A stretch of 10,723 bases of DNA, taken from the NCBI GenBank assembly GCA_015657535.1, contig JADHZB010001019.1, forward strand, positions 1 through 10,723, given 5' to 3'. Below the pieces are notes generated by a model that saw nothing but the letters and a program-made list of their open reading frames with translations, was not told the origin of the DNA and ran no database searches. Shown piece after piece: positions 1 through 10,723 of the stretch (within the stretch, counting starts at the first letter, position 1; every line of letters starts with the position of its first letter). A program made the position numbers and the translations under genes. This DNA comes from Nephromyces sp. MM_2019 (taxonomy: Eukaryota; Apicomplexa; Aconoidasida; Nephromycida).

Positions 1-170
1 GTGTGTGTGATGCTGTTGTGATGTGTGTGTGATGCTGTTGTGATGCTGTTGTGATGTGTGTGTGTGGTGCTGTTGTGATGTGTGTGTGATGCTGTGATGC
101 TGTTGTGATGCTGTTGTGATGCTGTTGTGATGTGTGTGTGATGTGTGATGCGCTTGTGATGTGTGTGTGC
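1..170. repeat. 11-bp minisatellite, TGATGCTGTTG / TGATGTGTGTG
   Basis: Two 11-base unit types, TGATGCTGTTG and TGATGTGTGTG, alternate irregularly from the left edge to about 170, with a few units shortened or extended by TG. The array continues off the window. It probably sits in an intron or intergenic sequence; no coding frame is credible here. Confidence 0.85.
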
Positions 171-241
171 GTATTACGCTATCGCTAAGTCTCTGTGTGT
201 AAATCCTATCTCCCGTGTTTTTTGTTTGTGTGGGATTAAAG

Positions 242-391
242 CATGATACCACCCCAAGAGTTATACTTACCGCTGTCCACTATATTGAGCCCATCTTCAC
301 TGTCTTCAATATCTGTGTGTGTGCTTGTGTGTGCGACAGGCGAAAGCTCGGCCACCCATGAAGAGATGAGATCTTTCTTCAGCGTATCTCT
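242..391. CDS. Exon candidate, strand undecided
   Basis: Two readings compete. On minus, an exon 391-271 follows ATATGACAG and ends at a consensus donor G/GTAAGT. It reads RDTLKKDLISSWVAELSP, then a CA-derived HTSTHT, then DIEDSEDGLNIVDS. On plus, 242-314 reads HDTTPRVILTAVHYIEPIFT up to T/GTGTGT, and 340 onward reads ESSATHEEMRSFFS; the two join in phase 1, but across an intron of only 25 nt. The minus reading has the better donor and a hydrophilic product; the plus reading agrees with the TG orientation of the surrounding tracts. No family is recognised. One of the two is probably coding, but I cannot say which. Confidence 0.4.
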
Positions 392-481
392 CTGTCATAT
401 ATAATCAGAGGGAGCAGCGAACTTTAAGATTCCCAGAGCAACGTGTGCTGTAGGACAGCATTTTTTCGTTGTGTGAGTAGC

Positions 482-553
482 TTTGTGTGTGTGAGTGACT
501 TTGTGTGTGTGAGTAGCTTTGTGTGTGTGAGTGACTTTGTGTATGTGAGTAGC
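482..553. repeat. 18-bp tandem repeat in a 36-bp alternating pattern
   Basis: Four 18-base units, 482-499, 500-517, 518-535 and 536-553. They share TTTGTGTGTGTGAGT and alternate between endings GAC and AGC, so the true period is 36. A shorter, degenerate unit precedes them at about 468-481. Confidence 0.85.
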
Positions 554-1316
554 TTTTTTTATATGTGTATCTTACCTTCTACGTGTGCATGAATCTAGCA
601 TTGTGTGTGTTTTTATTTCTCTGTTGTCTCTGTGTCCCTATTTCTTTATGCTTCTATGTGTGTCCTATCTTTCTACAGACTTTTGTGTGTGTATGTATGG
701 AATAGATTAATCGCAATGAATGAGAGCATCACTTAGAGTCTTTTAAGGCACTTCTTTCGGTGTATATACACTGCTGCTCTCATAGTTTTGTCCATCTTCA
801 TCCACAGTTTTAGCGATTTCTATTAATTAAATTTTTGTCTTTTCAGCAGTTTTCGAGTGTACATACTGCCGTAAGAATAATGCTAAACACGCATTTTGAG
901 AATTACTCATTTAATGAGTACATGCAACAGCATAGAACTTACAGCTGAGCTGTAGATTTTTATATTGAGAGGAATTTTTAGTGTATGCGGGGGGTATGTG
1001 TGTGTAAGCTGATATGTGTGTTTGATGGGCTGTTTACCATACTTTGTGCGAGGTATGTGTTTTGTTGCGGATTTATTTACTCTGCTGTATGAAGTATTTG
1101 TTTTAGGGGTGTACGTACATTACTGTGAGTGGAATGTGTGTGTTTTTGGGGTATATACATTGCTGTGTGCGTGCATGTGCGATTATATCTGCTTGTGGGT
1201 TGCTCCAGGTCTGGGTGTGTGTTGGCATTTGTTCTGCGTGTTGGTGTGCAACGTGTATTCTGTCGGTGTGTGTGTGTGTGTGCGTATCTCTTCGACTGGC
1301 CTAAAAGGTAGTCTAT
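554..1316. other. No secure gene; TG- and T-rich sequence
   Basis: Mostly T/TG-rich with no convincing exon. Two weak minus readings exist: 834-756, with TVDEDGQNYESS next to the palindrome, and a stop-free but ATG-less frame 1119-907. A plus reading at 847-893 gives FECTYCRKNNAKHAF. None has good splice sites on both sides. The copies of the palindrome at 761, 858, 1110 and 1150 lie here. Confidence 0.5.
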
Positions 1317-1394
1317 CTAGCAGTGAACTTCTCCTTTATTAAGATGTCTTGGAGTGTATGTACACTCTAGCGCCTCCAAGGTAGAACGTAACTG
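1317..1394 (-). CDS. Possible short C-terminal exon
   Basis: On the minus strand, an acceptor ending GTCGCTAG is followed by a 25-codon open frame, QLRSTLEALECTYTPRHLNK, then GEVHC and TAG. The palindrome at 1352-1367 falls inside, again as E-C-T-Y-T. It is short enough to be chance. It is listed because the same frame choice recurs in other exon candidates, and because the CA tracts on plus downstream of it (1400-1880) fit minus-strand introns. Confidence 0.25.
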   Translation of the reverse strand, partial: QLRSTLEALECTYTPRHLNKGEVHC

Positions 1395-1928
1395 CTAGCG
1401 ACTATTGAGACTATAAAGGCAGTCATGCACACACGCAGCGTAGTATATCGATTGAGCTAGAGCAAATCCAAGAGCCCTGTAGCCTAACTTCTTATAGCTG
1501 ACAGAGTGCTCTCACTAAATGCCTCACACAACATCAGGGACTATACATCAACTTCCCAGCGCTGTACATACACATGAAGTAGCACAAGCACAGAGTCGTT
1601 TGGTGTAGGTGAAGGTTGAAGGAAGGTCTCTTCACCCACACGCACACGTTATGAACGCGTCAGGACTCACAGTCTCACTCGCCACACATGCACCCACTTG
1701 CTACACCCCTGGATTGACAGACGGTCTCTCTCCACACACACACACACACACACACATATAACCATTGGGTATACCTTTGGATTGACCGAGAATCCCTCCA
1801 GACACACACACTCTCTGGGTACAGCTTTGGTGCACCCTAGAAAGCTTTCACCTTCAGTAACAGCAGCACACATCATATGGTGGCTGCTTTAGCTGTGTGT
1901 TAGGCCTTGCTCTCTCTCCTAATATTAG
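1395..1928. other. Non-coding CA-rich stretch
   Basis: No credible exon. CA-rich tracts on plus are scattered from about 1420 to 1880, including a perfect (CA)12 at 1733-1756. The palindrome copy at 1563-1572 is here. Confidence 0.5.
1733..1756. repeat. (CA)12 microsatellite
   Basis: Twelve uninterrupted CA dinucleotides directly after TCTCTCTC and before TATA. Confidence 0.9.
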
Positions 1929-1972
1929 GTGATGCGATTGATCAGGGTAGTCTAGAAGAGGAGCTTAAGTAA
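1929..1972 (+). CDS. Possible short acidic exon
   Basis: A pyrimidine-rich stretch (GCTCTCTCTCCTAATATTAG) precedes a frame reading GDAIDQGSLEEELK before TAA. A possible donor GTAAGG overlaps the stop (from 1969), so this could be either an internal exon or a C-terminus. It is very short, and the surrounding tracts are CA-rich on plus, which argues for minus-strand transcription. Unrecognised. Confidence 0.2.
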
Positions 1973-2082
1973 GGGTGAAGCTCAGCAGAGAGATATTAAG
2001 CTGGGCTACTCAAAAATCCGCCTGTACCCCAATCAATAAGCTATGCAATCTATATTCCTAGCATACAGTTAGCCTCTAATCT

Positions 2083-2088
<6 letters not shown>

Positions 2089-2113
<25 letters not shown>
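2089..2113. repeat. (CA)12 microsatellite
   Basis: Twelve CA units plus one C, preceded by ATATA. Confidence 0.9.
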
Positions 2114-2195
2114 GAACAATCATGATACAGCTCTATCGATTATGCCTAGTGGTATCTTCGGCTTAATAGATTTCGTAAAGCCGTTCTACGCTATA

Positions 2196-2704
2196 CCCCC
2201 CTCGACTCTACCTTTACCACTACCAGCCAGGGGGCTCTAACATTCGTATCTCTACCTCACACCACCATCTTCCTTTGCACCCCCCTATGAGCGCTGAGCC
2301 GTCGCGCAGCGCTCAGCCCCCCTCAGACCTAGTTTCCTTCCTGCTATCATCCAGCCCGGCTCATAAACCCCCCCTCACCACCACCCCCCGCCACCCTCCT
2401 ACCTGCACAACCACCGTCATATCCCCCTTATCGCTCAAAACTGCGAATCTTTTCCCTAAAAAAGTGATTTTCTGCGAATTTTTCTTACTTTTTCATCGTT
2501 TTCTTTGAAAATGCCAGAAGGTGCGAAGCGGAATGCAAAAAACTTTAATTTTCATCAATTGATTGCGATATTTTAGGGTTTTTGGAGCTTTTTGGGGGGT
2601 TTTTGGCGTTATTTGAAGCTTTGTAGAGGCTTATTGTTTTTATGAGGCTTTTTGGAGTTTTTTGAGGGTTTTTTGACGGTTTTTAGGGGTTTTGTTGAAC
2701 TTAG
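2196..2704. other. C-rich, then T-rich block upstream of a possible start codon
   Basis: 2196-2440 is C-rich with little G (runs of five to seven C) and includes a 77-codon Pro/Ser/Thr-rich plus frame from 2275 that is probably a composition effect. 2441-2500 is AT-rich with two copies of CTGCGAATYTTT. AAAATGCC at 2508-2515 is a possible start for the Cys-Pro gene. 2570-2704 is made of degenerate TTTTTGG-like units. The block may be the promoter and first intron of that gene, by inference only. Confidence 0.35.
2289..2314. repeat. GC-rich inverted repeat, 8-bp arms
   Basis: Arms GAGCGCTG (2289-2296) and CAGCGCTC (2307-2314) are perfect complements around a 10-base GC-rich loop. It is the most CpG-rich spot in the window and lies about 200 bases upstream of the possible ATG at 2511. 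Confidence 0.7.
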
Positions 2705-2891
2705 CTTGTTGAGCAACCTATAGAAGAGGAAGACGATGTTGAAGGAGAAGATGATGAAGGAGAAAGTGATGAAGGAGAAAGTGATGATGAAGATGATGAA
2801 GAGGAGAGAAGATGAAGAAGAGGATGTATTCAAAAGGAAGATTATGAAGAGCAGGGATGAATTTCTGGGAAAAGAAAGAAGAATTTTATGA
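2705..2891 (+). CDS. Possible acidic or Lys/Glu-rich low-complexity exon
   Basis: After a long T/G-rich run and the acceptor GAACTTAG, one plus frame reads VEQPIEEEDDVEGEDDEGES and further Asp/Glu to TGA at 2813-2815. An overlapping frame from ATG 2736 reads MLKEKMMKEKV, then REDEEEDVFKRKIMKSRDEF, ending at TGA 2889-2891. Purine-rich GAA/GATGA sequence keeps several frames open, so openness proves little. The acidic frame would resemble nucleolar or chromatin acidic tails, but this is only a compositional likeness. The minus frame is a Phe/Ile/Ser-rich shadow. Confidence 0.25.
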
Positions 2892-3213
2892 TTATTTGGA
2901 GGATGATGAGGCAGTTTTGGATTTTTTTCGTAAAATTCTTTGTTTTTCGGCGAAATATGCTTGTTTACATGGCTTTATTTTTTTGCGATGCTTTTGAGGT
3001 TTAAAGGTTGCATGGTGTGTTGGCATCTTCAATTTCATAACAATTGCTAGTAGTGTGTGTGATTTCTTACTTTTTCCTTGTGTGTGCGTAAGATGTGCGT
3101 ATATTTGAGTGTGCACATCTTTATCTGTGTGTGTGTTTCTTCATTTTTGTTCTTTCCTACGTTCTCATCTCGAATCTGCGCACACTCTTATCTGCAAACT
3201 TTCCGACTTTCAG

Positions 3214-4406
3214 GTGAGTCTGTATGTCCCTTCTCTGGTAAGGGAGGGAAGCTCTCGAAGGTTGCTCAAACTTTCCACGATAAAATGATGGGAAGCTGCC
3301 CGAAGCTTGAAGTTACTAAGCAAGTTGAGCAGCCGATAATTGAGGATGCTTACTCAAAGATGTTGAAGAGAGAGGGGCGATCTTCAGCCCCTCAGATTGG
3401 TCTGTGTGTGTGTATGTGTGTGTTTGTCTTTTCTCTATTTCTGTGTGTGTGTTTCATCTCTATTTGTGTGTGTAGTCGTTATTTGTGTTTTTCTAGTCTC
3501 TTATTGTGTGTAGTCCGTATGTATGTGCGTGTCTTATATTTCCCATTTTGTGTGTGAGTCTCATATCTCCCATTTCACCCGTATGTGTGTGTGTGAAATG
3601 ACCTTAGTCTTTCACCCTTCTTACAGGAGGCTGCCCTGTAATGCATAACCTTTCTAAAGGCGATTTGGAGGCTCTTATGAAGAATTTTGACAATCCTGAG
3701 AAGAGATCGGAGTTTGAGGCTTTACACAAGAGCTACATGGAGAGTGGGAAGCCAAGTGTTGCTTTGGAAGCTTTCTATAAAAGTAAAGGCTTGTTGGGGT
3801 GTACATACAGTCGATATGTATATAGATATGCGATATGCAGTCGAGCCAAAAGAACGCAGACACACTAGTACGCACATATATAGAGACTATGCTTACACAA
3901 ACACAAATCTGCAGACGCAAACACGCACCAGAGAGCACACAGTTTCCATACGCATACACACCCATTAAGTATAGGCTTATACAGTGGAGAATACACACAG
4001 TTGATGGGTGTACATACAGCTTAGTGAGCATGCATTACTTTTGTTGTTTTCCTGCGAAGTTTCATTATGTGCTGGTATGTGTGGGGCTGCGATAGTTATT
4101 TGTTTAACTCTTTTGTAAAAGGTCTTTTCTCCTAGTATACTCCTCGTTTTTTACGCGAAAGTGTGTGTGTGCGTGCACGGAGTTCTATGTATTTAGATAG
4201 CTTTGTGTGTGTGTGTGTTTATGAACCCTTCTGTATGTTTGTTTAAAACCTTGGTGTATTGTATAGCCCCTTGTGTGTCTGTATGTAAATACCCCATGCC
4301 TGTGTGTCTGTATGTAAATACCCCATGCCTGTGTGTGTGTTTCTTTGCTCTATGCACAGGCCAAGAGGATTTCACTAATGACCAACCGAAGATCAGTGAA
4401 GTTTAA
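3214..4406 (+). CDS. Unrecognised small basic protein with three Cys-Pro motifs, spliced
   Basis: I do not recognise this family. Exon A (3214-3399) follows a pyrimidine-rich acceptor ending TTTCAG; exon B (3627-3800) follows TTCTTACAG; a probable last exon C (4360-4406) follows ATGCACAG. All junctions fit phase 1. Exon A reads VCPFSGKGGKLSKVAQTFHD, then SCPKLEV; exon B reads GGCPVMHNLSKGDLEALMKN and a Lys/Glu-rich helical stretch ending AFYKSKGLLG; exon C ends NDQPKISEV and TAA. The three CP dipeptides resemble haem-regulatory motifs, and CPVMH resembles the N-terminal motifs of cytochrome c haem lyase, but no haem-lyase catalytic domain is visible. A tiny first exon ATGCCAGAAG (2511-2520, donor GTGCGA) fits the phase and would give 138 residues; this is speculative. 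After the exon C acceptor another frame stays open to 4521, so the C-terminus is uncertain. Exons A and B look clearly coding; the function is unknown. Confidence 0.6.
3400..3626 (+). other. TG-rich intron between exons A and B
   Basis: A 227-nt sequence that begins GTCTGTGTG and ends TTCTTACAG, bounded by reading frames that join exactly in phase 1 (Gly codon split G/GA). It is dominated by TGTG tracts and T-rich stretches on the plus strand, the sense strand of the flanking gene. Frames reading through it give only Cys/Val/Phe-rich strings. Confidence 0.6.
3801..4359 (+). other. Likely last intron of the Cys-Pro gene, with mixed CA and TG blocks
   Basis: It starts within the palindrome (T/GTACATAC at 3801) and ends ATGCACAG. 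The first part (3850-3970) is CA-rich on plus, the second (4160-4345) TG-rich. A second palindrome copy (4009) has flanks like the first: both are GGGTGTACATACAG. The CA part is unusual for a sense-strand intron here and might mark antisense or unrelated sequence. Confidence 0.4.
4272..4329. repeat. Perfect 2 x 29-bp tandem duplication
   Basis: Positions 4272-4300 and 4301-4329 are identical; the unit starts TGTGTGTCTGTATGTAAATA and ends CCCCATGCC. It lies just before the acceptor of the Cys-Pro gene's last exon, and perfect identity suggests a recent event. Confidence 0.95.
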
Positions 4407-4535
4407 AAGTTTTTTGAACTCCTATTCAGTCAATTCTCGATGTGCGGCTGCGTACATGTGCGATTCTGTGAAGATGAGGGATGAAATAAGTGTGCGTACA
4501 CTCCGCCCCTTGTATGTTTAGGGCTTGTTCCTTTG

Positions 4536-4694
4536 TTATGTTTGTCCATATTCACATAACCTCTTTGAAGGCTGCTGTACTACAGGTTGTGTGTTGTTTT
4601 TTATGTGTTTTTGAGTGTATGTACACTCAGGAAGATGTGTGTATATTTTTTTCAGTTCTTGATAAGGGATCTTCGCTCTATACGTTTTCCACTC
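4536..4694 (-). CDS. Likely last exon of an unrecognised minus-strand gene
   Basis: Read on the minus strand, an acceptor ending GGGTGTAG is followed by a frame open for 52 codons to TAA. It starts EWKTYRAKIPYQELKKIYTH, runs through ECTYTQKHIKNN and ends PSKRLCEYGQT. Composition is balanced and hydrophilic, unlike the TG-derived frames around it. The upstream sequence (4695-4759) is TG-rich on the minus strand, as expected of an intron. A 33-nt preceding exon at 4792-4760 (INGTINLHSTP) would join in phase 0. The palindrome TGTAYRTACA lies inside as Cys-Thr-Tyr. The end faces the end of the plus-strand Cys-Pro gene, so the two would be convergent. I recognise no family, and no start is seen. 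A competing plus-strand frame (ECMYTQED) is shorter and Cys/Phe-rich. Confidence 0.45.
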   Translation of the reverse strand, partial: EWKTYRAKIPYQELKKIYTHLPECTYTQKHIKNNTQPVVQQPSKRLCEYGQT

Positions 4695-4794
4695 CTACAC
4701 CCAGGTTTAGTCAGCTAAGAGAATGAGGTATTTGGTGCACAGAAAAAAAACACACACACTGGAGTTGAGTGCAAGTTGATAGTACCATTTATCT

Positions 4795-4973
4795 TTGAAT
4801 GAAGTTTAACAAGAGAGCGCGTGTGTGTGTACAAAAATGGAAATGAGTAAGCGTGAGTTTTTGTGTCCATATGTTTTAGTGTAGGTTTGTGGGTGTGTGT
4901 ATGTTCTAGTTTAGGAGCAGGAGTGTGTGTATGGGTTTTCATGTAGGTATGTGTGTGTTCTAGTGCAGCAGCG
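4795..4973. other. TG-rich intergenic or intronic stretch
   Basis: TG tracts on plus with no credible exon. It separates the two minus-strand C-terminal exon candidates. Confidence 0.4.
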
Positions 4974-5256
4974 TTATCTCCCCATTGGGATCAGCTTATT
5001 GAGGATGTTCCGCATCATCTTCAGCTCTTCAACACAATTTGCAGCGGTGTACGTACACCTCATGAATGCACTCATTGCTTTCCTTTTCTGCTTCCTGCTC
5101 CGGGGGAAGTCTTGTAGATCGAGTTTTTACACACACCAACCCACACATATACCCATACGCACAGCAGCTACTTTCGTTTGCTGTTGAGTTTTTTCATTGT
5201 ATGTACACCTGCTTGCTGAGGAGGGCCTGCTAATGGTTTCTATGGGCGAGTGCTGT
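4974..5256 (-). CDS. Two likely C-terminal exons of an unrecognised minus-strand gene
   Basis: Exon 5256-5159 (minus) reads QHSPIETISRPSSASRCTYN and on through EKTQQQTKVAAV. A 48-nt intron, 5158-5111, begins GTATGG, is TG-rich on the sense strand and ends CTACAAG. Exon 5110-4974 follows in phase 1 and reads FPRSRKQKRKAMSAFMRCTY, then AANCVEELKMMRNILNKL, then IPMGR and TAA. The basic RSRKQKRK cluster looks like a nuclear localisation signal and the end looks like an amphipathic helix. Both exons carry the dispersed palindrome, each time reading R-C-T-Y. An alternative donor CAG/GTGTACATAC at 5208 is also in phase. The plus strand here is also open (HWDQLIEDVPHH) but less balanced. Upstream exons above 5257 were not identified and I know no homologue. 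Confidence 0.45.
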
Positions 5257-5866
5257 CTACTTTTTGAAAGCTACGTTTTGTGTGTGTGCGTGTGTTGCAA
5301 GTGCTTAAGCTTTAGTTCTAGTAGTCCTGAGGAGTATACCTAATGAAGTGTACTGACAAAACTTTGTATTAACATTTGGCTGTGCGAGTAGTGCTGCGAA
5401 AGTTTTTGTGGTAAGTGTGTACGTGGAAAGAGGTGATGCCCAAACAGGAATGTGTAATAAGTGTGTTATTATTAGTAATGGAAACAGTACGAGAAAGGTT
5501 GGGAGATATGTGTGTGTGCATGTGTGTGGATTCGATATGTGTGGATTCTATATGTGTCTGGTGTATACGTTTGTTGACTCTACGTGGTTTTGTGGTGTGT
5601 GCGTGTGTTATGTGTGTGTGAATTCTATGTGTGTGCGTGAATTCTATGTGTGTGCTTGGACTCCATGCGTGTGCGTGGACTCTATGTGGGTTTGTGGTGT
5701 GTGTAGACTCCACACATGTGTATATGTGTGAGCTCCATAGGTGCGTGTATGTATGCATGTTTGCTTTCTTACTCTCTGCGTGTGTCGATGCAAAAGAGCC
5801 TAGCATGCATCTAGGTAATCTGGGTGTGTGTTAGAGTTTTTGTAGTACTACGTTTCGCTTTGCTAG
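5257..5866. other. TG-rich stretch with few coding signs
   Basis: Mostly TG-rich on plus. A consensus donor G/GTAAGT at 5411 and a short plus frame at 5420-5505 (VERGDAQTGMCNKCVI, then SNGNSTRKV) are the only hints of exons. The minus-strand His/Thr frame over 5369-5806 is a repeat artefact. Confidence 0.4.
5621..5696. repeat. 19-bp tandem repeat, four units
   Basis: Units 5621-5639, 5640-5658, 5659-5677 and 5678-5696 share the pattern RAYTCYATGTGTGTGCGTG with increasing divergence. Shorter related GTGTGGATTCTATAT units precede them from about 5520. Confidence 0.8.
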
Positions 5867-6061
5867 TCTTAAGCCTATAAAGCTGATGATGCTGCGGTAC
5901 GCAAGAAAAGGCAGGATTGCCCTAAGAAAGGTGAGCGCTGTAAGTATACCCACCAGGCATCATTTTCCAATGATTTTGGTGTGAAGCCTTCGCTCTTCCA
6001 CTCCAGCGCACACACACATAGTTATAGCTGCTGCCTTTCACACATGGCCTACGCTTTGTAG
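5867..6061 (+). CDS. Exon candidate with two competing readings (basic exon or CCCH-like half)
   Basis: An acceptor CGCTTTGCTAG at 5866 and a consensus donor AAG/GTGAGC at 5930 delimit a 64-nt exon reading LKPIKLMMLRYARKGRIALR, strongly basic, with no stop between the sites. In another frame the sequence 5873-6061 is open for 62 codons and contains DCPKKGERCKYTHQASFSND, which has the C-x6-C-x3-H spacing of the second half of a CCCH zinc finger; the first cysteine is not within the expected 7-9 residues upstream, so it would have to come from another exon. The GTGAGC donor lies inside the CCCH reading. The preceding 550 bases are TG-rich on plus, which fits a plus-strand intron. I cannot choose between the readings and claim no function. 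Confidence 0.35.
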
Positions 6062-6486
6062 GGAGTTAAAAGCTGTGCTTCACTTTCTTCCCCCTGGATG
6101 ACTATGCATACAACAAACAAGCTTCCAGACACATGCACACATGGCAGAGTGCCGACACACACATATAGAGTCCAGATGTATATACAGATGCCAGAGGCAC
6201 ATATGGAGTCCATAAACACACAGAGATCCCCACACCCACGCACATACTAATATAATATGATCAGGATCTACAAACAGGTTATAATATCTTATTGAATGAG
6301 TTGTTAAGTGCGTGTTCACACACTCTTAAGCTTTAACGTTCAAATTTGCGGTTCAAATCACTTAACACACACATCATATCAGCATTACTAGCTTCGCCAT
6401 CATGAGAATCAGCTTTGGTGGACAAGCACCAGCTCGCTCAGGTCTAGCAAGCACGTTCACACACACACAGACACACATGTTATTAG
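6062..6486. other. CA-rich stretch without a secure gene
   Basis: CA tracts on plus at 6110-6245 and 6360-6480. A weak plus exon at 6379-6440 (after CATATCAG, reading ITSFAIMRISFGGQAPARS) could join the region downstream in phase 1. The palindrome copy at 6177 lies here, in the reading SRCIYRC. Confidence 0.4.
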
Positions 6487-6612
6487 GGGAGAAATAGCAA
6501 TCGTTACTCCGCAATGACCGAAGAAAGCTTGCTGATTTGCAGGGTGTGGACATATCCCAAGTCTAGCGATGAAGTGGAGTGTACGTACACCGAAAGGCAG
6601 AGAAGCGGTTGA
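6487..6612 (+). CDS. Exon candidate, strand uncertain
   Basis: After GTTATTAG a plus frame is open for 41 codons: GRNSNRYSAMTEESLLICRV, then WTYPKSSDEVECTYTERQ and a TGA stop. A start ATG at 6514 is possible. The palindrome at 6579-6590 falls in it as E-C-T-Y-T. On the minus strand a complete 64-codon ATG frame (6698-6504) also looks protein-like, reading MDLDVHFRGLFRGRVYAKSL and ending QISKLSSVIAE. The surrounding CA tracts on plus favour minus-strand transcription, as does NOP10 just upstream on that strand. A third option is a plus reading from acceptor TTTGCAG (6541), giving KWSVRTPKGREAVEYE. No family recognised. Confidence 0.3.
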   Translation, partial: GRNSNRYSAMTEESLLICRVWTYPKSSDEVECTYTERQRSG

Positions 6613-6861
6613 ATATGAGTATAATACACAAGCGAAGTAAGAGATTTTGCATACACTCTACCTCTAAAAAGACCCCTGAAATGCACATCCAGGTCCACCT
6701 CTCACCACAGCCAAGGAGTCTCCCCTATACACGCAGACACACTCGCAGGCTAGCACACACACACACACACACCAACCCACATACACTGCAGTCCGGACAC
6801 ACAAATACACACAGCTCATTAAAACCCCCCTTCCCGCCAGCGCATACGCACCCCCTTCACT

Positions 6862-7579
6862 TTAGAGCCTCAGAGGCTCCTGCTGAGTAGGTAGAAGATT
6901 GAATCTTCGTTTACAGGCTATTCGCTGAGAGGAAAGCTTATCATCAGGTGAGAAGCGAGCAGGATGGGCCGAGAATGTGGGGTTACCATCAGGAGTGAGC
7001 GCCTAGAGGACACAGATAGTGAAAAGGCTTGTAATACAAACAAAAAGGCAGAACATAGAGAGAGCTAGAGAGTGAGAAAGAGTGACAGAGTGACACATAT
7101 GGAGAGAGAAAAACACACATATAGAGAGACACACACACATACACAGAGGCCAACTCACGTAGAGACTAACAAAAACACATAGAGACCAACCCACACGCAC
7201 ACAGACCACACACACATCAAACTACAAACATAGAGATCACACGTACACAGTATGAGCAAACATCGATAGTATAAAGAAGCGTAGTGAGCAGGTTAAGCTG
7301 GAAAAGAATGAAACCAGTTCAGCTGATACACACACACACAGTTAGGTACACACACAGAAGCTGAAAATATCTTCAATGTAACTACACCGTGTTGCAGGCC
7401 CTTACAGAAAAAGACTGAAAAATAAAACATACACACGCAAATATCCAAGAACATTAGAAAATCCCTATAAAATTTTCGGTAATGCAGGGTTTTGCACACA
7501 CTTGAAGGAGATGTGTGTCACCCACCTTCAGGGTATAAACCCTCTTTCCATCTGGGCCATCGTAATACCGAAGATACAT
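6862..7579 (-). CDS. NOP10: H/ACA ribonucleoprotein subunit NOP10, two exons
   Basis: Small core protein of H/ACA snoRNPs. In the nucleolus it binds the pseudouridine synthase (dyskerin/Cbf5) and helps guide rRNA pseudouridylation; in some lineages it is also part of telomerase. Exon 1 (7579-7526) starts at ATG and encodes [18 protein letters not shown], the typical N-terminal zinc-ribbon-derived strand region without its cysteines, as in eukaryotic NOP10. The intron 7525-7003 begins GTGGGT and ends CTCTAG, phase 0. Exon 2 (7002-6862) continues [20 protein letters not shown], the family signature, then a basic stretch [12 protein letters not shown] and a TAA stop. The total of 64 residues equals the human length, so the gene looks complete and intact. 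The intron is rich in TG on the sense strand (CA on plus). The flanking genes are unclear. Identity rests on recognising the conserved [12 protein letters not shown] block and on the exact phase match. I am very sure of this call. Confidence 0.95.
7003..7525 (-). other. NOP10 intron, TG-repeat-rich on the sense strand
   Basis: This 523-nt phase-0 GT-AG intron is fixed on both sides by NOP10 coding sequence, so it is the best view of intron structure in the window. Its sense strand carries many TGTG tracts, seen as CACA at 7080-7250 and 7325-7440 on plus. It ends with a pyrimidine-containing acceptor (TGTCCTCTAG). I found no snoRNA boxes inside it by eye. Confidence 0.9.
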
Positions 7580-7974
7580 CCTTATAACAGGGAGTTTTAT
7601 AGAGTATTTCAGGGGGTTTAGGGAAGAGCCTATACACTCAAAGAAGACACACACACAAGCTCTATGCGTACAAAAGAGATCATAGAATCAAGCTAAAGTG
7701 AAATTTCAGTATATGCTGGCTATCCATAATCTTAAGATCGTACAAAAAAACACACACTGAAACGAAGTGTGGGAAGATATATAGTGAAAAAAATCTAGCA
7801 ACACACACAGTAAAGTGAAATTCAGCAACACACAAGTACAAAGGGCCAACCAAGTCAACTGCAATCAGCACTCAATTCTTCGTTTATTGTCGTGTTAGTG
7901 TGTGTGTGGTTTTCTCCGTGTGTGTGTGTGTGTGTGGTCATCTTGTGTGCGAGATTATCTCCTTGTGTCCAGCA
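7580..7974. other. NOP10 upstream region
   Basis: The sequence upstream of the NOP10 start. TATAAAA (minus, 7601-7595) is only about 16 bases from the ATG, too close for a normal TATA box. CA tracts at 7640-7840 are TG on the sense strand. The related segments TAAAGTGAAATTTCAG (7695-7710) and GTAAAGTGAAATTCAGC (7810-7826) form a degenerate direct repeat. No exon is secure. Confidence 0.4.
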
Positions 7975-8409
7975 TCATCTCGTCTGCGTGTAGCATAAAA
8001 CCTTTTCCAAAACTATCTGCAGCAAATTCTCGCCACTCAGACTATTCTTTATACGCCTTACTGTACTGCACACTACAGAGAAACCATCAGAAAGAGAAGA
8101 TTCGCACACATACCAGGAATTCTCGCACACACCCTGAATTCTCACATATCCACACATGCGCAGCTTCTCATCTAGAAAACACACTATGCTTGGTATATCT
8201 ATGCGTAGCCAATGATCTTGAATGCGGTTCAAAAGTGAAGAAACAAGCATGAATGAGTGTGCACACACCTCCACTACCAGCAAGCTACAAGTGGGTGTAC
8301 ATACACCTCCATCACCTTCACTATCAGCCAGTAACACGGAAAATCTCAATATCGTTAAAAGCAAAAAGTTTAGGGCAAAACGTCTAACTTTTGAGGCAGA
8401 AAACACCAA
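7975..8409 (-). CDS. Long open minus frame, coding status uncertain
   Basis: A 144-codon frame without stops. Parts are protein-like: SLLNRIQDHWLRIDIPSIVC followed by FLDEKLRMCGY, and RRIKNSLSGENLLQIVLEK, which follows a possible acceptor GCAGTACAG and precedes a possible donor AAG/GTTTTA. Other parts are Cys/Val strings derived from TGTG. The plus strand is also open here (7902-8252, with KLSAANSRHSDYSLYALLY). The first third overlaps the better plus-strand Lys/Arg-rich candidate. It may contain one real exon at about 8075-8015, but I cannot support the whole frame. Confidence 0.2.
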   Translation of the reverse strand: MVFSASKVRRFALNFLLLTILRFSVLLADSEGDGGVCTPTCSLLVVEVCAHSFMLVSSLLNRIQDHWLRIDIPSIVCFLDEKLRMCGYVRIQGVCENSWYVCESSLSDGFSVVCSTVRRIKNSLSGENLLQIVLEKVLCYTQTR

Positions 8410-8627
8410 ATTCTCTTTCTCTTCAGTAAAGGCATATAAGCCACCAGGTAAAGCCGCTTTTAGAAGAGAATTGTGTAGAAAAAGGGAGTAACTTCTTCAT
8501 AGACGAAGAAGACGAAATTTTTGCTCACCTACGAAGAAGATAGGCAAATGGAAGAAAGTTGAGGGGTGTACATACACCGCCACGCCTTCGCTGGAGAAAC
8601 TGCAGAGGAGGAAAGAAACTGCTACAG
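8222..8627 (+). CDS. Lys/Arg-rich coding candidate with an in-frame TAA
   Basis: A plus frame from ATG 8222 runs to TAA at 8489-8491. It reads SKLQVGVHTPPSPSLSASN, then KSKKFRAKRLTFEAENTKF, then KPPGKAAFRRELCRKRE. The same frame continues after the stop from acceptor CTTCATAG (8502) with SPTKKIGKWKKVEGCTYT and PSLEKLQRRKETAT to a consensus donor ACAG/GTAAGA at 8628. The two halves share frame and basic character. The TAA lies in a 15-nt GTAAC..CATAG stretch, too short for an ordinary intron. It may be a true end with a second exon beginning at 8503, a longer intron from CAG/GTAAAG (8443), or a broken gene. The following sequence is TG-rich, as in other sense-strand introns. A minus frame (8409-7975, 144 codons) overlaps and cannot be excluded. 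Function unknown. Confidence 0.4.
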
Positions 8628-9075
8628 GTAAGAGGCAATGTGTGGGAAAGGGTTTGATGAAGATGTGACGGCATGGTGTGTACGAGATTGGATTGTGTGT
8701 ATATGTTGCGGGCAATAAGTGATGTGTGTGTGCTGGTTAGTGAGTAGTGTGTGCGTGTGCTGGTTAGTGAGTAGTGTGTGTGTGTGCTGGTTAGTGAGTA
8801 GTGTGTGTGTGTGCTGGTTAGTGAGTAGTGTGTGTGTGTGCTGGTTAGTGAGTAGTGTATGCGTGTGTTGGGGCAAATGAGTATTGTCTGTATACCTGTG
8901 TTTCGTGTGTTTTGTGGGGTTGAGGAATGAGTTTGGCTGCTAGGAATAGGTGTATCTGAGTAGGTTGGGTTGCCAGGAATATATGTGTAAGGTCGTTACT
9001 GTGTGTGTGTTAAACTATGAAAAATAGTGTGTGTTGCCCAGTTAGTAGTGTGTGTGTGCTTGGGAATGTTTGTAG
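8628..9075 (+). other. TG-rich likely intron containing a minisatellite
   Basis: It begins at the consensus donor GTAAGA and is TG-rich throughout on plus. It would end at TTTGTAG if the downstream exon belongs to the same gene. No coding frame is credible; the minus frame here is the repeat peptide QHTHTLLTN. Confidence 0.4.
8731..8865. repeat. 27-bp minisatellite, five units
   Basis: Five 27-base units start at 8731, 8758, 8785, 8812 and 8839. All begin TGCTGGTTAGTGAGTAGTGT and differ only in the TG tail. A degenerate sixth unit follows. The period is a multiple of three, so the minus strand reads a false nine-residue repeat. Confidence 0.95.
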
Positions 9076-9411
9076 TATGTGTGCGTCGGGAAGATGCTAA
9101 AATACTGCGGCGTTTATGCACTCTCCTGGTTTCTAGCGAAGATGCAGTAGCCTCATCTTTGCGTAATGTGTTATCTTCACCTACGCTGCCCTCGCACACA
9201 CACACGCACATGCACAGACACACACGCACATACACACGCACACACAGACACGCACACACAGACACACACGCACACACAGACACACACACGCACACACACA
9301 CGCACACACAGACACACACGCACGCACATCTTTGGATATCCTAGCAGGTGTATGAATCCCAACGATTGTGAGTGTTTGAGGGAGAAACTGCACGTACACT
9401 CAAAAATATAA
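9076..9411. CDS. Pair of exon candidates around a CA-rich block, strand undecided
   Basis: On plus, acceptor TTTGTAG at 9075 opens a frame reading [20 protein letters not shown], then DAVASSLRN. Joining at donor GTTATC (9170) across the CA block to acceptor CTAGCAG (9347) gives [20 protein letters not shown] and TAA at 9411 in matching phase. The first exon also fits phase 1 from donor 8628, so this could extend the Lys/Arg-rich gene. On minus, the same DNA reads [20 protein letters not shown] and, beyond the repeat, [20 protein letters not shown]; there the CA block would be a TG-rich sense intron, as in NOP10. Both models are coherent. Confidence 0.35.
9197..9331. repeat. CA-rich compound repeat
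   Basis: Interspersed CACACACG and CACAGACACA units, about 135 bases almost free of T. It separates the two exon candidates of 9076-9411 and is stop-free in several frames, which creates spurious ORFs on both strands. Confidence 0.85.
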
Positions 9412-9576
9412 ATCCACTAAAACATCACAATTTCCAAGTGTTTTGTTTCTTCAGTGAACTGCTTCGTCTTCACCCAATTATTCTTTTTCTACAATTTTTC
9501 AGTGAAATGTGTGTGTTTGCGCTATAAAAGGGAAATGAGAAGAATTTGCAGGTTGGAAAATAAGTGCGCTCTCATT
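9412..9576. other. AT-rich non-coding spacer
   Basis: AT-rich, with two TTCAGTGAA acceptor-like sequences (9450 and 9498) after pyrimidine runs. No exon is visible. Confidence 0.4.
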
Positions 9577-9755
9577 GAATAAAGGCTCGCACACACACTC
9601 ACGGTATTCTTGAAGAGTAAAATGAATGAGGTTTTCCACACGCACGGACATACATTGCTCTTGGAGGGTGAGAGATGAATAAAGTTTGACGCACACACAC
9701 ACCACTCTTGGGGAGTGAAAGATGAATGTAGTTTTTACACGCACACAGACATGGA
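9577..9755. repeat. Tandem modules of 47/53/47 bp
   Basis: Modules start at 9577, 9624, 9677 and 9724, each beginning GAATRWRG, passing a CACACGCAC tract and, in the first three, a CTTGRRGRGTGAAAGAT-like end. The last is incomplete. The minus-strand frame across them shows a degenerate repeat (FTLQE) and is best seen as a repeat product. Confidence 0.75.
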
Positions 9756-10664
9756 AATGTTAACCGACACCCCAACCTCCCACGTAAAAGCTAATAAAAC
9801 TGAGCTTCCGCCATGAATATGCATGTATAGAAGTGGAAAATAGTCATACACAAACATAGTTTTACTCACACAGTTTTAAACACGCACCGAAGTATATGCC
9901 AACGCACACACATACCCATACACACACCGGCAAGTATACTGACATACCTACACATACCCACACGTACTCATGCACCCACACACACACCTATACACACACC
10001 CCAAGAACTCACGCACAAACACTCTCATATTGCATCAAATCTACCGATGTTGCCCATATTCCGCGTGTTGCTCATTCTTTGCGTTCAAACTGAGTGCCAT
10101 GTATTAAAGCAGTGAATCTTCTGCGACAGAAAAACAAAGCTTGACAAGAGGGTACGTGCACTTTTGAGAAATAGGCAATCCTTATAGTGTGTGGAGACTT
10201 TTTAGGTGTGTGCGTGTGCTAATTTGTGCTGGCTGTGGCAAAGAACCACACTCAGCACTTGATTGATGCGTATCTTAAGCACCAAGGAAGCCCTCCTCAG
10301 TTTCTTTGCTTTTTGTAGGTTTTACCTCTATGATGTGTGTATTAGTTTGGCTGCTCATAGTAGACTAGTATGCCTTTGCTGGTGTGTGATATGTGTGTGT
10401 GTATTCTTTCTCTACATGACGTAGCTTATTGATACTGCCACGCAGCTACTGTGACTAAAGCTCTTCAGCTGAGGCTGCCTATGTGCTGTTATGCACACAC
10501 TTGGTGTAGAGCTCTGTGCAATTGTGAATGAATATCCATGCTCATTGCTCTGTACGCACACACGGTTTTGAGTAACTTATGCTATACTTTGAGGTGTGTG
10601 CACTGATTAGGCTTTGAGTATTAAGCTGAAAACCACCCCTTAAGTTCAGTAGTTTTCTTCCCAG
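9756..10664. other. CA-rich then TG-rich sequence without a secure gene
   Basis: CA tracts on plus to about 10020, TG after 10170. Weak exon hints: plus 10227-10306 (AKNHTQHLIDAYLKHQGSPP), plus 10452-10480 (TVTKALQLRLP after CCACGCAG) and minus 10195-10087 (RIAYFSKVHVPSCQALFF). None has convincing splice sites on both sides. The orientation switch suggests convergent or divergent units, or a change of transcribed strand near 10100. Confidence 0.35.
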
Positions 10665-10723
10665 GCACCCTCTAACTTGTCTGATACCTCCCTGACCCCC
10701 TTAAACCTTCTGACGCTCCCTCT
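10665..10723 (+). CDS. Partial exon running off the right edge
   Basis: The acceptor AGTAGTTTTCTTCCCAG is among the best in the window. Only one of the three following frames stays open to the edge, reading APSNLSDTSLTPLNLLTLP, a Ser/Thr/Pro/Leu-rich segment. The upstream 450 bases are TG-rich on plus, consistent with a plus-strand intron. The product is unknown, and the sequence is too short to test further. Confidence 0.35.

Follow-up and report, generated by a model that had tools for sequence, protein, structure and literature searches.

What kind of element is the palindrome TGTAYRTACA, which is dispersed over a 10,723-nucleotide stretch of the apicomplexan Nephromyces sp. MM_2019 (hereafter the window: contig JADHZB010001019.1, or C535, positions 1-10723)? 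An original prediction, made before any database search, had reported 13 copies, far above chance. All 13 are present, between positions 761 and 8576, against a mean of 0.14 and a maximum of 2 in 200 dinucleotide shuffles; the random expectation of 0.04 given at the time was somewhat too low, but the conclusion stands. The extended form RGTGTAYRTACACY (shuffle mean 0.00) is found at 7 of the 13 sites, and the same seven carry the extension GTGTAYRTACAC, so that the form described as usual is in fact a slight majority only. The looser pattern RGTGTRNNYACACY brings two extra copies, at 4489 and 8256, and 22 sites are found when one mismatch is allowed, where 3.0 are expected.

Abundance in the genome

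Each pattern was searched in the whole assembly (48.28 Mb, 1,127 contigs), with the reversed pattern as control. TGTAYRTACA occurs 5,646 times (control 1,002), a count that the original prediction had proposed as a check and that rules out confinement to this locus. The contrast is much stronger for the 14-mer RGTGTAYRTACACY, with 1,698 copies against 3. It is likewise strong for GGTGTAYRTACACC (403 against 0; 1,917 against 25 with up to one mismatch), AGTGTAYRTACACT (475 against 1) and RGTGTRNNYACACY (2,267 against 33). The element is therefore genome-wide and sharply defined across 14 bp. Copies are concentrated in the window, which has 13 10-mers and seven 14-mers where the genome rate predicts 1.25 and 0.38, respectively.

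Smaller-scale tests were made on sampled loci. L005-L020 come from contigs listed with TGTAYRTACA, L021-L024 were chosen blindly, and L045 comes from a contig with both copies and an AP2 match. L001-L004 had been selected by the motif and were excluded from the spacer scan, outer-pair, GC-bin, flank and arm-extension tests.

Could such numbers arise without function, as a by-product of mutation in TG/CA tracts or as fossils of a small mobile element? The association with base composition is what such an origin would lead one to expect: in 1-kb bins of the sampled loci (bins with more than 100 N dropped, overlapping AP2 loci treated as separate), 13 of 14 14-mers lie at a GC content of at least 0.40, the class richest in TG/CA runs, and a single one lies in the 171 bins below 0.38. 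The sequence itself speaks differently. Seven TG/CA-rich loci, 56 kb in all, contain 30 copies of TGTAYRTACA, whereas Markov models of order 1 to 4 predict means of 0.4 to 2.7. Within the reach of these models, tract slippage is thereby excluded, as the original prediction had argued from the structure of the site. Nor do the copies share flanks, which leaves the suggestion of a mobile-element fossil without support: across 595 pairs formed by 35 sites, flank identity equals that of random pairs (median 0.289 for both), and only two pairs exceed the random 99th percentile, where six are expected, both within one tandem array (L049). A blastn search of the window gave one match outside it, between L041 and 5591-5729, which is TG-rich and element-free, and the tblastx matches, as far as read, were TG/CA tracts. 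With 1,698 copies against 3 in the control, an origin without function is refuted at the level tested, and we give it practically no credence.

A role at inversion or strand-switch boundaries was also considered, since two pairs of copies (3800/4009, 5048/5198) border short CA blocks within TG-rich sequence. It was dropped: among 30 sites from the window and five other loci, 29 are located in gaps between tracts, and 10 of these fall in polarity-switch gaps, which make up 27% of gap length; for the window taken by itself, the figures are 7 of 13 sites and 40% of the length.

Two abutting half-sites at fixed spacing

The half-sites RGTGTAY and RTACACY abut. Genome-wide, 1,698 pairs have no spacer, and spacers of 1 to 12 bases together account for 64 (control 40). 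The same rigidity is apparent by locus (L001-L004, L032, L040 and L042 dropped): TGTA-N2-TACA is found 14 times in the window and 16 times in seven other GC-richer loci, with at most 2 for any other spacer (0 to 8 in the window). The signal is weaker in AT-rich loci, with 45 copies and 17 for the next spacer. The centre also shows a preference. It is YR in 403 of the 482 copies of GGTGTANNTACACC, and AYRT in 1,698 of the 2,267 copies of RGTGTRNNYACACY, where uniform use would yield 4 in 64.

The original prediction had pointed to symmetrical outer bases. These are indeed seen, but they reflect mainly a preference at each position and not pairing between the arms. Outer classes are distributed genome-wide as 403 GG..CC, 820 mixed and 475 AG..CT, against 389, 848 and 461 under independence (chi-square 1.78, p 0.18, 1,698 copies). 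At 30 sites from six TG/CA-rich loci, complementary outer pairs are about as frequent at each position as independent base choice predicts. Centre classes in 50 listed GG..CC copies, counted by hand like the other half-site tallies from lists of 50 places, are 21 CG, 23 CA/TG and 6 TA, for expected values of 21.1, 22.8 and 6.1. Independence of both arms and centre is the pattern of two identical, independently read half-sites, not of base-paired arms.

These data bear directly on the idea of an element acting in the transcript, either as a hairpin GGUGU-AYRU-ACACC or as a PUF site (UGUANAUA). Two of the seven window copies that were folded (of 13) are more stable than their shuffles, with z of -4.0 (4607-4634) and -2.5 (1346-1373), and the copy at L045:565 has 14 more symmetric bases on each side. 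The other five folded copies have z between -1.1 and +1.5, however, and the spacer is invariant, whereas a hairpin loop would tolerate changes in length. The outer pair shows no covariation among the 1,698 copies. A PUF site needs A at a half-site position where G outnumbers A (65 of 100 half-sites in the listed GG..CC copies). Neither compensatory arm changes nor tolerance of loop length having been found, the hairpin is disfavoured, and an RNA element of either type appears highly improbable. The copy at L045:565 is the centre of a long inverted repeat (L045 551-588, from C123:4400-13300), with two perfect 18-base arms and a 2-base centre.

Likeness to a sexual-stage element of Plasmodium

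The core of the element is, in sequence, letter for letter the ten-base sexual-stage element of Plasmodium. TGTAYRTACA is reported as a female cis-regulatory element of P. berghei recognised by PFG (PMC11162789), and TGTRNNYACA as the motif at PFG chromatin immunoprecipitation peaks (1,029 common peaks) in the same species. PFG is described as binding this motif without AP2-FG, which itself binds only via PFG, and mutation of the motif as abolishing binding (PMC10945693). A palindrome associated with sexual development, TGTANNTACA, is reported for 92 of 364 genes in P. vivax and 65 of 246 in P. falciparum (PMC2850316, PMC4839107). The Nephromyces element conforms to this consensus (TGTRNNYACA, chiefly TGTAYRTACA) and, like the PFG/AP2-FG element, it is a rigid palindrome without variable spacer. 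The two share an identical 10-bp word, the AYRT centre and a fixed symmetry; their numbers are of the same order (1,029 P. berghei PFG peaks, 1,698 Nephromyces 14-mers), and both hosts are apicomplexans with ApiAP2 and ACDC proteins. They differ in that the Nephromyces element belongs to a lineage near Cardiosporidium, has a 14-bp consensus with G..C and R..Y, and is strongly clustered, with local arrays.

By analogy with Plasmodium, we consider that the element is probably a PFG/AP2-FG-type sexual-stage element in a nephromycid. The data are fitted better by a protein-DNA site of two-fold symmetry than by a hairpin in RNA, a fossil of a mobile element or a site for AP2-G. On the DNA site RGTGTAY|RTACACY, a putative protein would contact both half-sites, which are identical and abut with fixed spacing. 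A PFG-type factor, by this analogy, would bind the dyad and could recruit an AP2-FG-like ApiAP2 activator to sexual-stage promoters, and the activator would then switch on female gamete, zygote or oocyst genes.

The original prediction had raised AP2-G as a hypothesis, with the half-site GTGTAC as a match to GNGTAC and the element as two such halves placed head to head. It was right about the kind of factor, an apicomplexan one, and GTGTAC is indeed the reading of 14 of the 26 window half-sites and of 65 among the 100 half-sites that the 50 listed GG..CC copies provide. The genome also encodes AP2 domains, and RGTGTAY, with palindromes counted in, exceeds all four Markov models in the seven TG/CA-rich loci (49 against 23.6-39.4). 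A third or more of the half-sites nevertheless end in T and break GNGTAC (12 of 26 in the window, 35 of 100 in the listed copies), and GTGTAC as such (41 in the seven loci) is above the order 1 model only (25.1), being no higher than those of order 2 to 4 (40.8-49.2). The probe tested for AP2-G, GTGTACAC (GxGTACxC; PMC4537280, PMC12190761), is in a different register. The window has no copy of it, where 0.56 would be expected, and the seven loci show no enrichment (2 seen, 2.1-11.1 simulated). The AP2-G site known from Plasmodium and Theileria thus shares with the Nephromyces element the half-site GTGTAC and two-fold symmetry, but its halves overlap whereas those of the Nephromyces element abut. 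AP2-G in particular is therefore unsupported, and we regard it as very unlikely. The idea nonetheless directs attention to the right pathway, since PFG is described as a target of AP2-G (PMC10945693).

Another bipartite ApiAP2 site is the subtelomeric SPE2 of P. falciparum, bound by PfSIP2. Like the Nephromyces element it has a fixed geometry and is clustered, and some Nephromyces copies lie near contig ends; SPE2, however, is reportedly a direct repeat of another core, and for the Nephromyces copies a link to telomeres was neither seen nor searched for.

Outside Plasmodium, no report of the element was found in open-access full texts, subscription papers being outside the scope of the search; of 15 papers that contain one of the motif strings, PMC11162789 alone is apicomplexan by its title. 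A survey of Cryptosporidium motifs (PMC3734150) does not have the string TGTA in its main text.

Uneven distribution and local arrays

Several observations weigh against a PFG/AP2-FG-type element. With its outer G..C and R..Y, the consensus is longer than the ten bases described in Plasmodium. Symmetric arm extension at the 30 sites has a mean of 1.47, against 0.91 in shuffled flanks (p 0.0056), an excess that comes mainly from L045:565; without that site the values are 1.03 and 0.86 (p 0.12). The distribution is very uneven: contigs C1-C36 (1,005 kb), counted by hand from the lists, carry 38 14-mers (chi-square 288, 35 degrees of freedom), and 26 of the 36 have none, where the genome rate predicts 15.4. 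C19 and C24 are among those without a 14-mer, despite being TG/CA-rich, with a GC content of 0.43-0.44, and window-like where sampled. An element serving a general regulon would be expected to be more evenly spread, though an assembly of two species could explain the unevenness. Finally, there are local arrays, a feature not required of a plain promoter element: L049 (C32:5150-5350) contains three tandem copies 23 bp apart, with apparent decayed copies upstream, and a local array with decayed copies was identified by eye at L045 8040-8260.

Clusters and arrays would be accounted for if the element were the site of a different dimeric DNA-binding protein, such as another ApiAP2 or a chromatin or architectural factor, its likeness to the Plasmodium element being due to convergence. 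Clusters and 23-bp arrays would then load a boundary or heterochromatin protein. Consistent with this are the strong clustering per contig, the tandem copies of L049 and decayed copies of L045, and the position of the three 14-mers of the 86-kb contig C30 (650, 82,809 and 85,160), each less than 4 kb from an end. Convergence would have to produce the letter-for-letter identity to TGTAYRTACA, down to the preference for AYRT out of 64 possible centres, and we hold this alternative to be unlikely, a PFG/AP2-FG-type element remaining the best reading.

Contigs C535, C13 and C27 carry 14-mers at a density of 0.5-0.65 per kb. The densest bin class, with a GC content of 0.38 or more and moderate TG/CA, comprises 24 bins and averages 0.46 per kb. 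Copies also exist outside GC-rich DNA, in L023 and in two copy-bearing stretches at the ends of C30 (0.31-0.33). With respect to genes, for which the gene set is unreliable, one 14-mer (L014:724-737, the same as C13:724-737) is found 150 bp upstream of a minus-strand open reading frame with a good score (L014:2-574). In L045, an AP2 gene starts near 4,858, and the 2 kb upstream of it contain no 14-mer.

AP2 and ACDC genes of the host

This genome has 64 matches to AP2 (E 0.001) and 6 to ACDC, an apicomplexan domain, and these matches mark it as apicomplexan. Among the seven matches of a 750-residue AP2 reading from L026, the strongest is to a Cardiosporidium cionae AP2 protein, at 334 bits, with a best local piece of 71% that covers 11% of the query. 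The second match has 172 bits, and the other named matches are three Eimeria proteins and one from Besnoitia. PFG homologues are reported broadly across Apicomplexa, in Toxoplasma and Eimeria, as well as in Vitrella (PMC10945693), and nephromycids are placed in the literature next to or within Hematozoa.

The assembly may be a mixture of two related species. Two pairs of AP2 genes occur, C252/C371 and C18/C832, with an ACDC match just downstream of each, which are likely orthologues of two co-sequenced species, or duplicates. CCT/Cpn60 gives 50 matches on 16 contigs, where a single species is expected to have about ten such genes. Both observations suggest two species, whereas the single match to PRP8 domain IV speaks against two complete genomes. 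On C199 and C388, Cpn60/TCP1 matches have identical score and spacing, probably from duplicate assembly of one locus.

Other features of the window

The copies of the element and the one probable gene are listed in Table 1. Exons of this gene were predicted from a codon-usage score whose 2,272 training codons include its own exons 2 and 3. Its closest upstream 14-mer is at 1353. As regards a splicing signal, which the original prediction had listed as another option, the copy at 3800 follows, by eye, the end of a predicted exon, the motif itself being strand-symmetric. Exons 2 and 3 joined gave no homologue in a protein search and no Pfam match; the Pfam search of the window as a whole gave nothing, and the window contains no RNA families or tRNAs. 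The open reading frame 6480-8537 of L017 had no homologue at E 0.001. The predicted exon 2708-2806 is highly acidic (VEQPIEEEDDVEGEDDEGESDEG...).

Most of the window consists of long strand-biased blocks, TG-rich or CA-rich, which switch along the contig and perhaps track the direction of transcription. It also contains several minisatellites, among them a 27-bp unit at 8718-8871 and a 36-bp unit at 470-556.

Table 1. Element copies and predicted gene in the window (contig C535, 1-10723).
Feature	Position	Strand	Remark
Element copy GGTGTATATACACT	759..772	.	14-mer class; core 761-770
Element copy TGTACGTACA	1110..1119	.	10-mer core only
Element copy AGTGTATGTACACT	1353..1366	.	outer bases symmetric to GAG..CTC
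Element copy TGTACATACA	1563..1572	.	10-mer core only
Probable multi-exon gene	2708..3793	+	predicted exons ~2708-2806, 3210-3401, 3626-3793; introns TG-rich
Element copy TGTACATACA	3800..3809	.	directly after predicted + strand exon (scored 3626-3772, slightly longer open)
Element copy TGTACATACA	4009..4018	.	10-mer core only
Degenerate copy AGTGTGCGTACACT	4489..4502	.	matches broader Plasmodium consensus TGTRNNYACA
Element copy AGTGTATGTACACT	4614..4627	.	outer bases symmetric to GAG..CTC
Element copy GGTGTACGTACACC	5046..5059	.	perfect 14-bp palindrome
Element copy TGTATGTACA	5198..5207	.	10-mer core only
Element copy TGTATATACA	6177..6186	.	10-mer core only
Element copy AGTGTACGTACACC	6578..6591	.	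14-mer class
Degenerate copy AGTGTGCACACACC	8256..8269	.	matches broader consensus TGTRNNYACA
Element copy GGTGTACATACACC	8294..8307	.	14-mer class
Element copy GGTGTACATACACC	8565..8578	.	14-mer class

Implications

The palindrome belongs to a kind of element already known, and the lineage is new for it. Its consensus, at 14 bp, is sharper and its clustering unusual. Tentatively, and with somewhat less than even confidence, we propose that the PFG/AP2-FG switch is older than the split between Plasmodium and the Nephromyces/Cardiosporidium lineage. In the latter, the site would have become fixed as a 14-bp dyad and spread to form dense clusters and arrays that mark a compartment of sexual- or oocyst-stage genes, or else one of two co-sequenced sister species.

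The PFG-bound element itself was met only in Plasmodium papers, though homologues of PFG are reported in the other genera named above. The occurrence of 1,698 copies against 3 in an apicomplexan other than Plasmodium allows the age of the female transcription programme to be tested directly, with Nephromyces as a non-malaria relative for comparison, and the 14-bp consensus is sharp enough for target genes to be predicted by sequence alone. These results suggest that this sexual-stage control system may predate, and extend beyond, its known use in malaria parasites.

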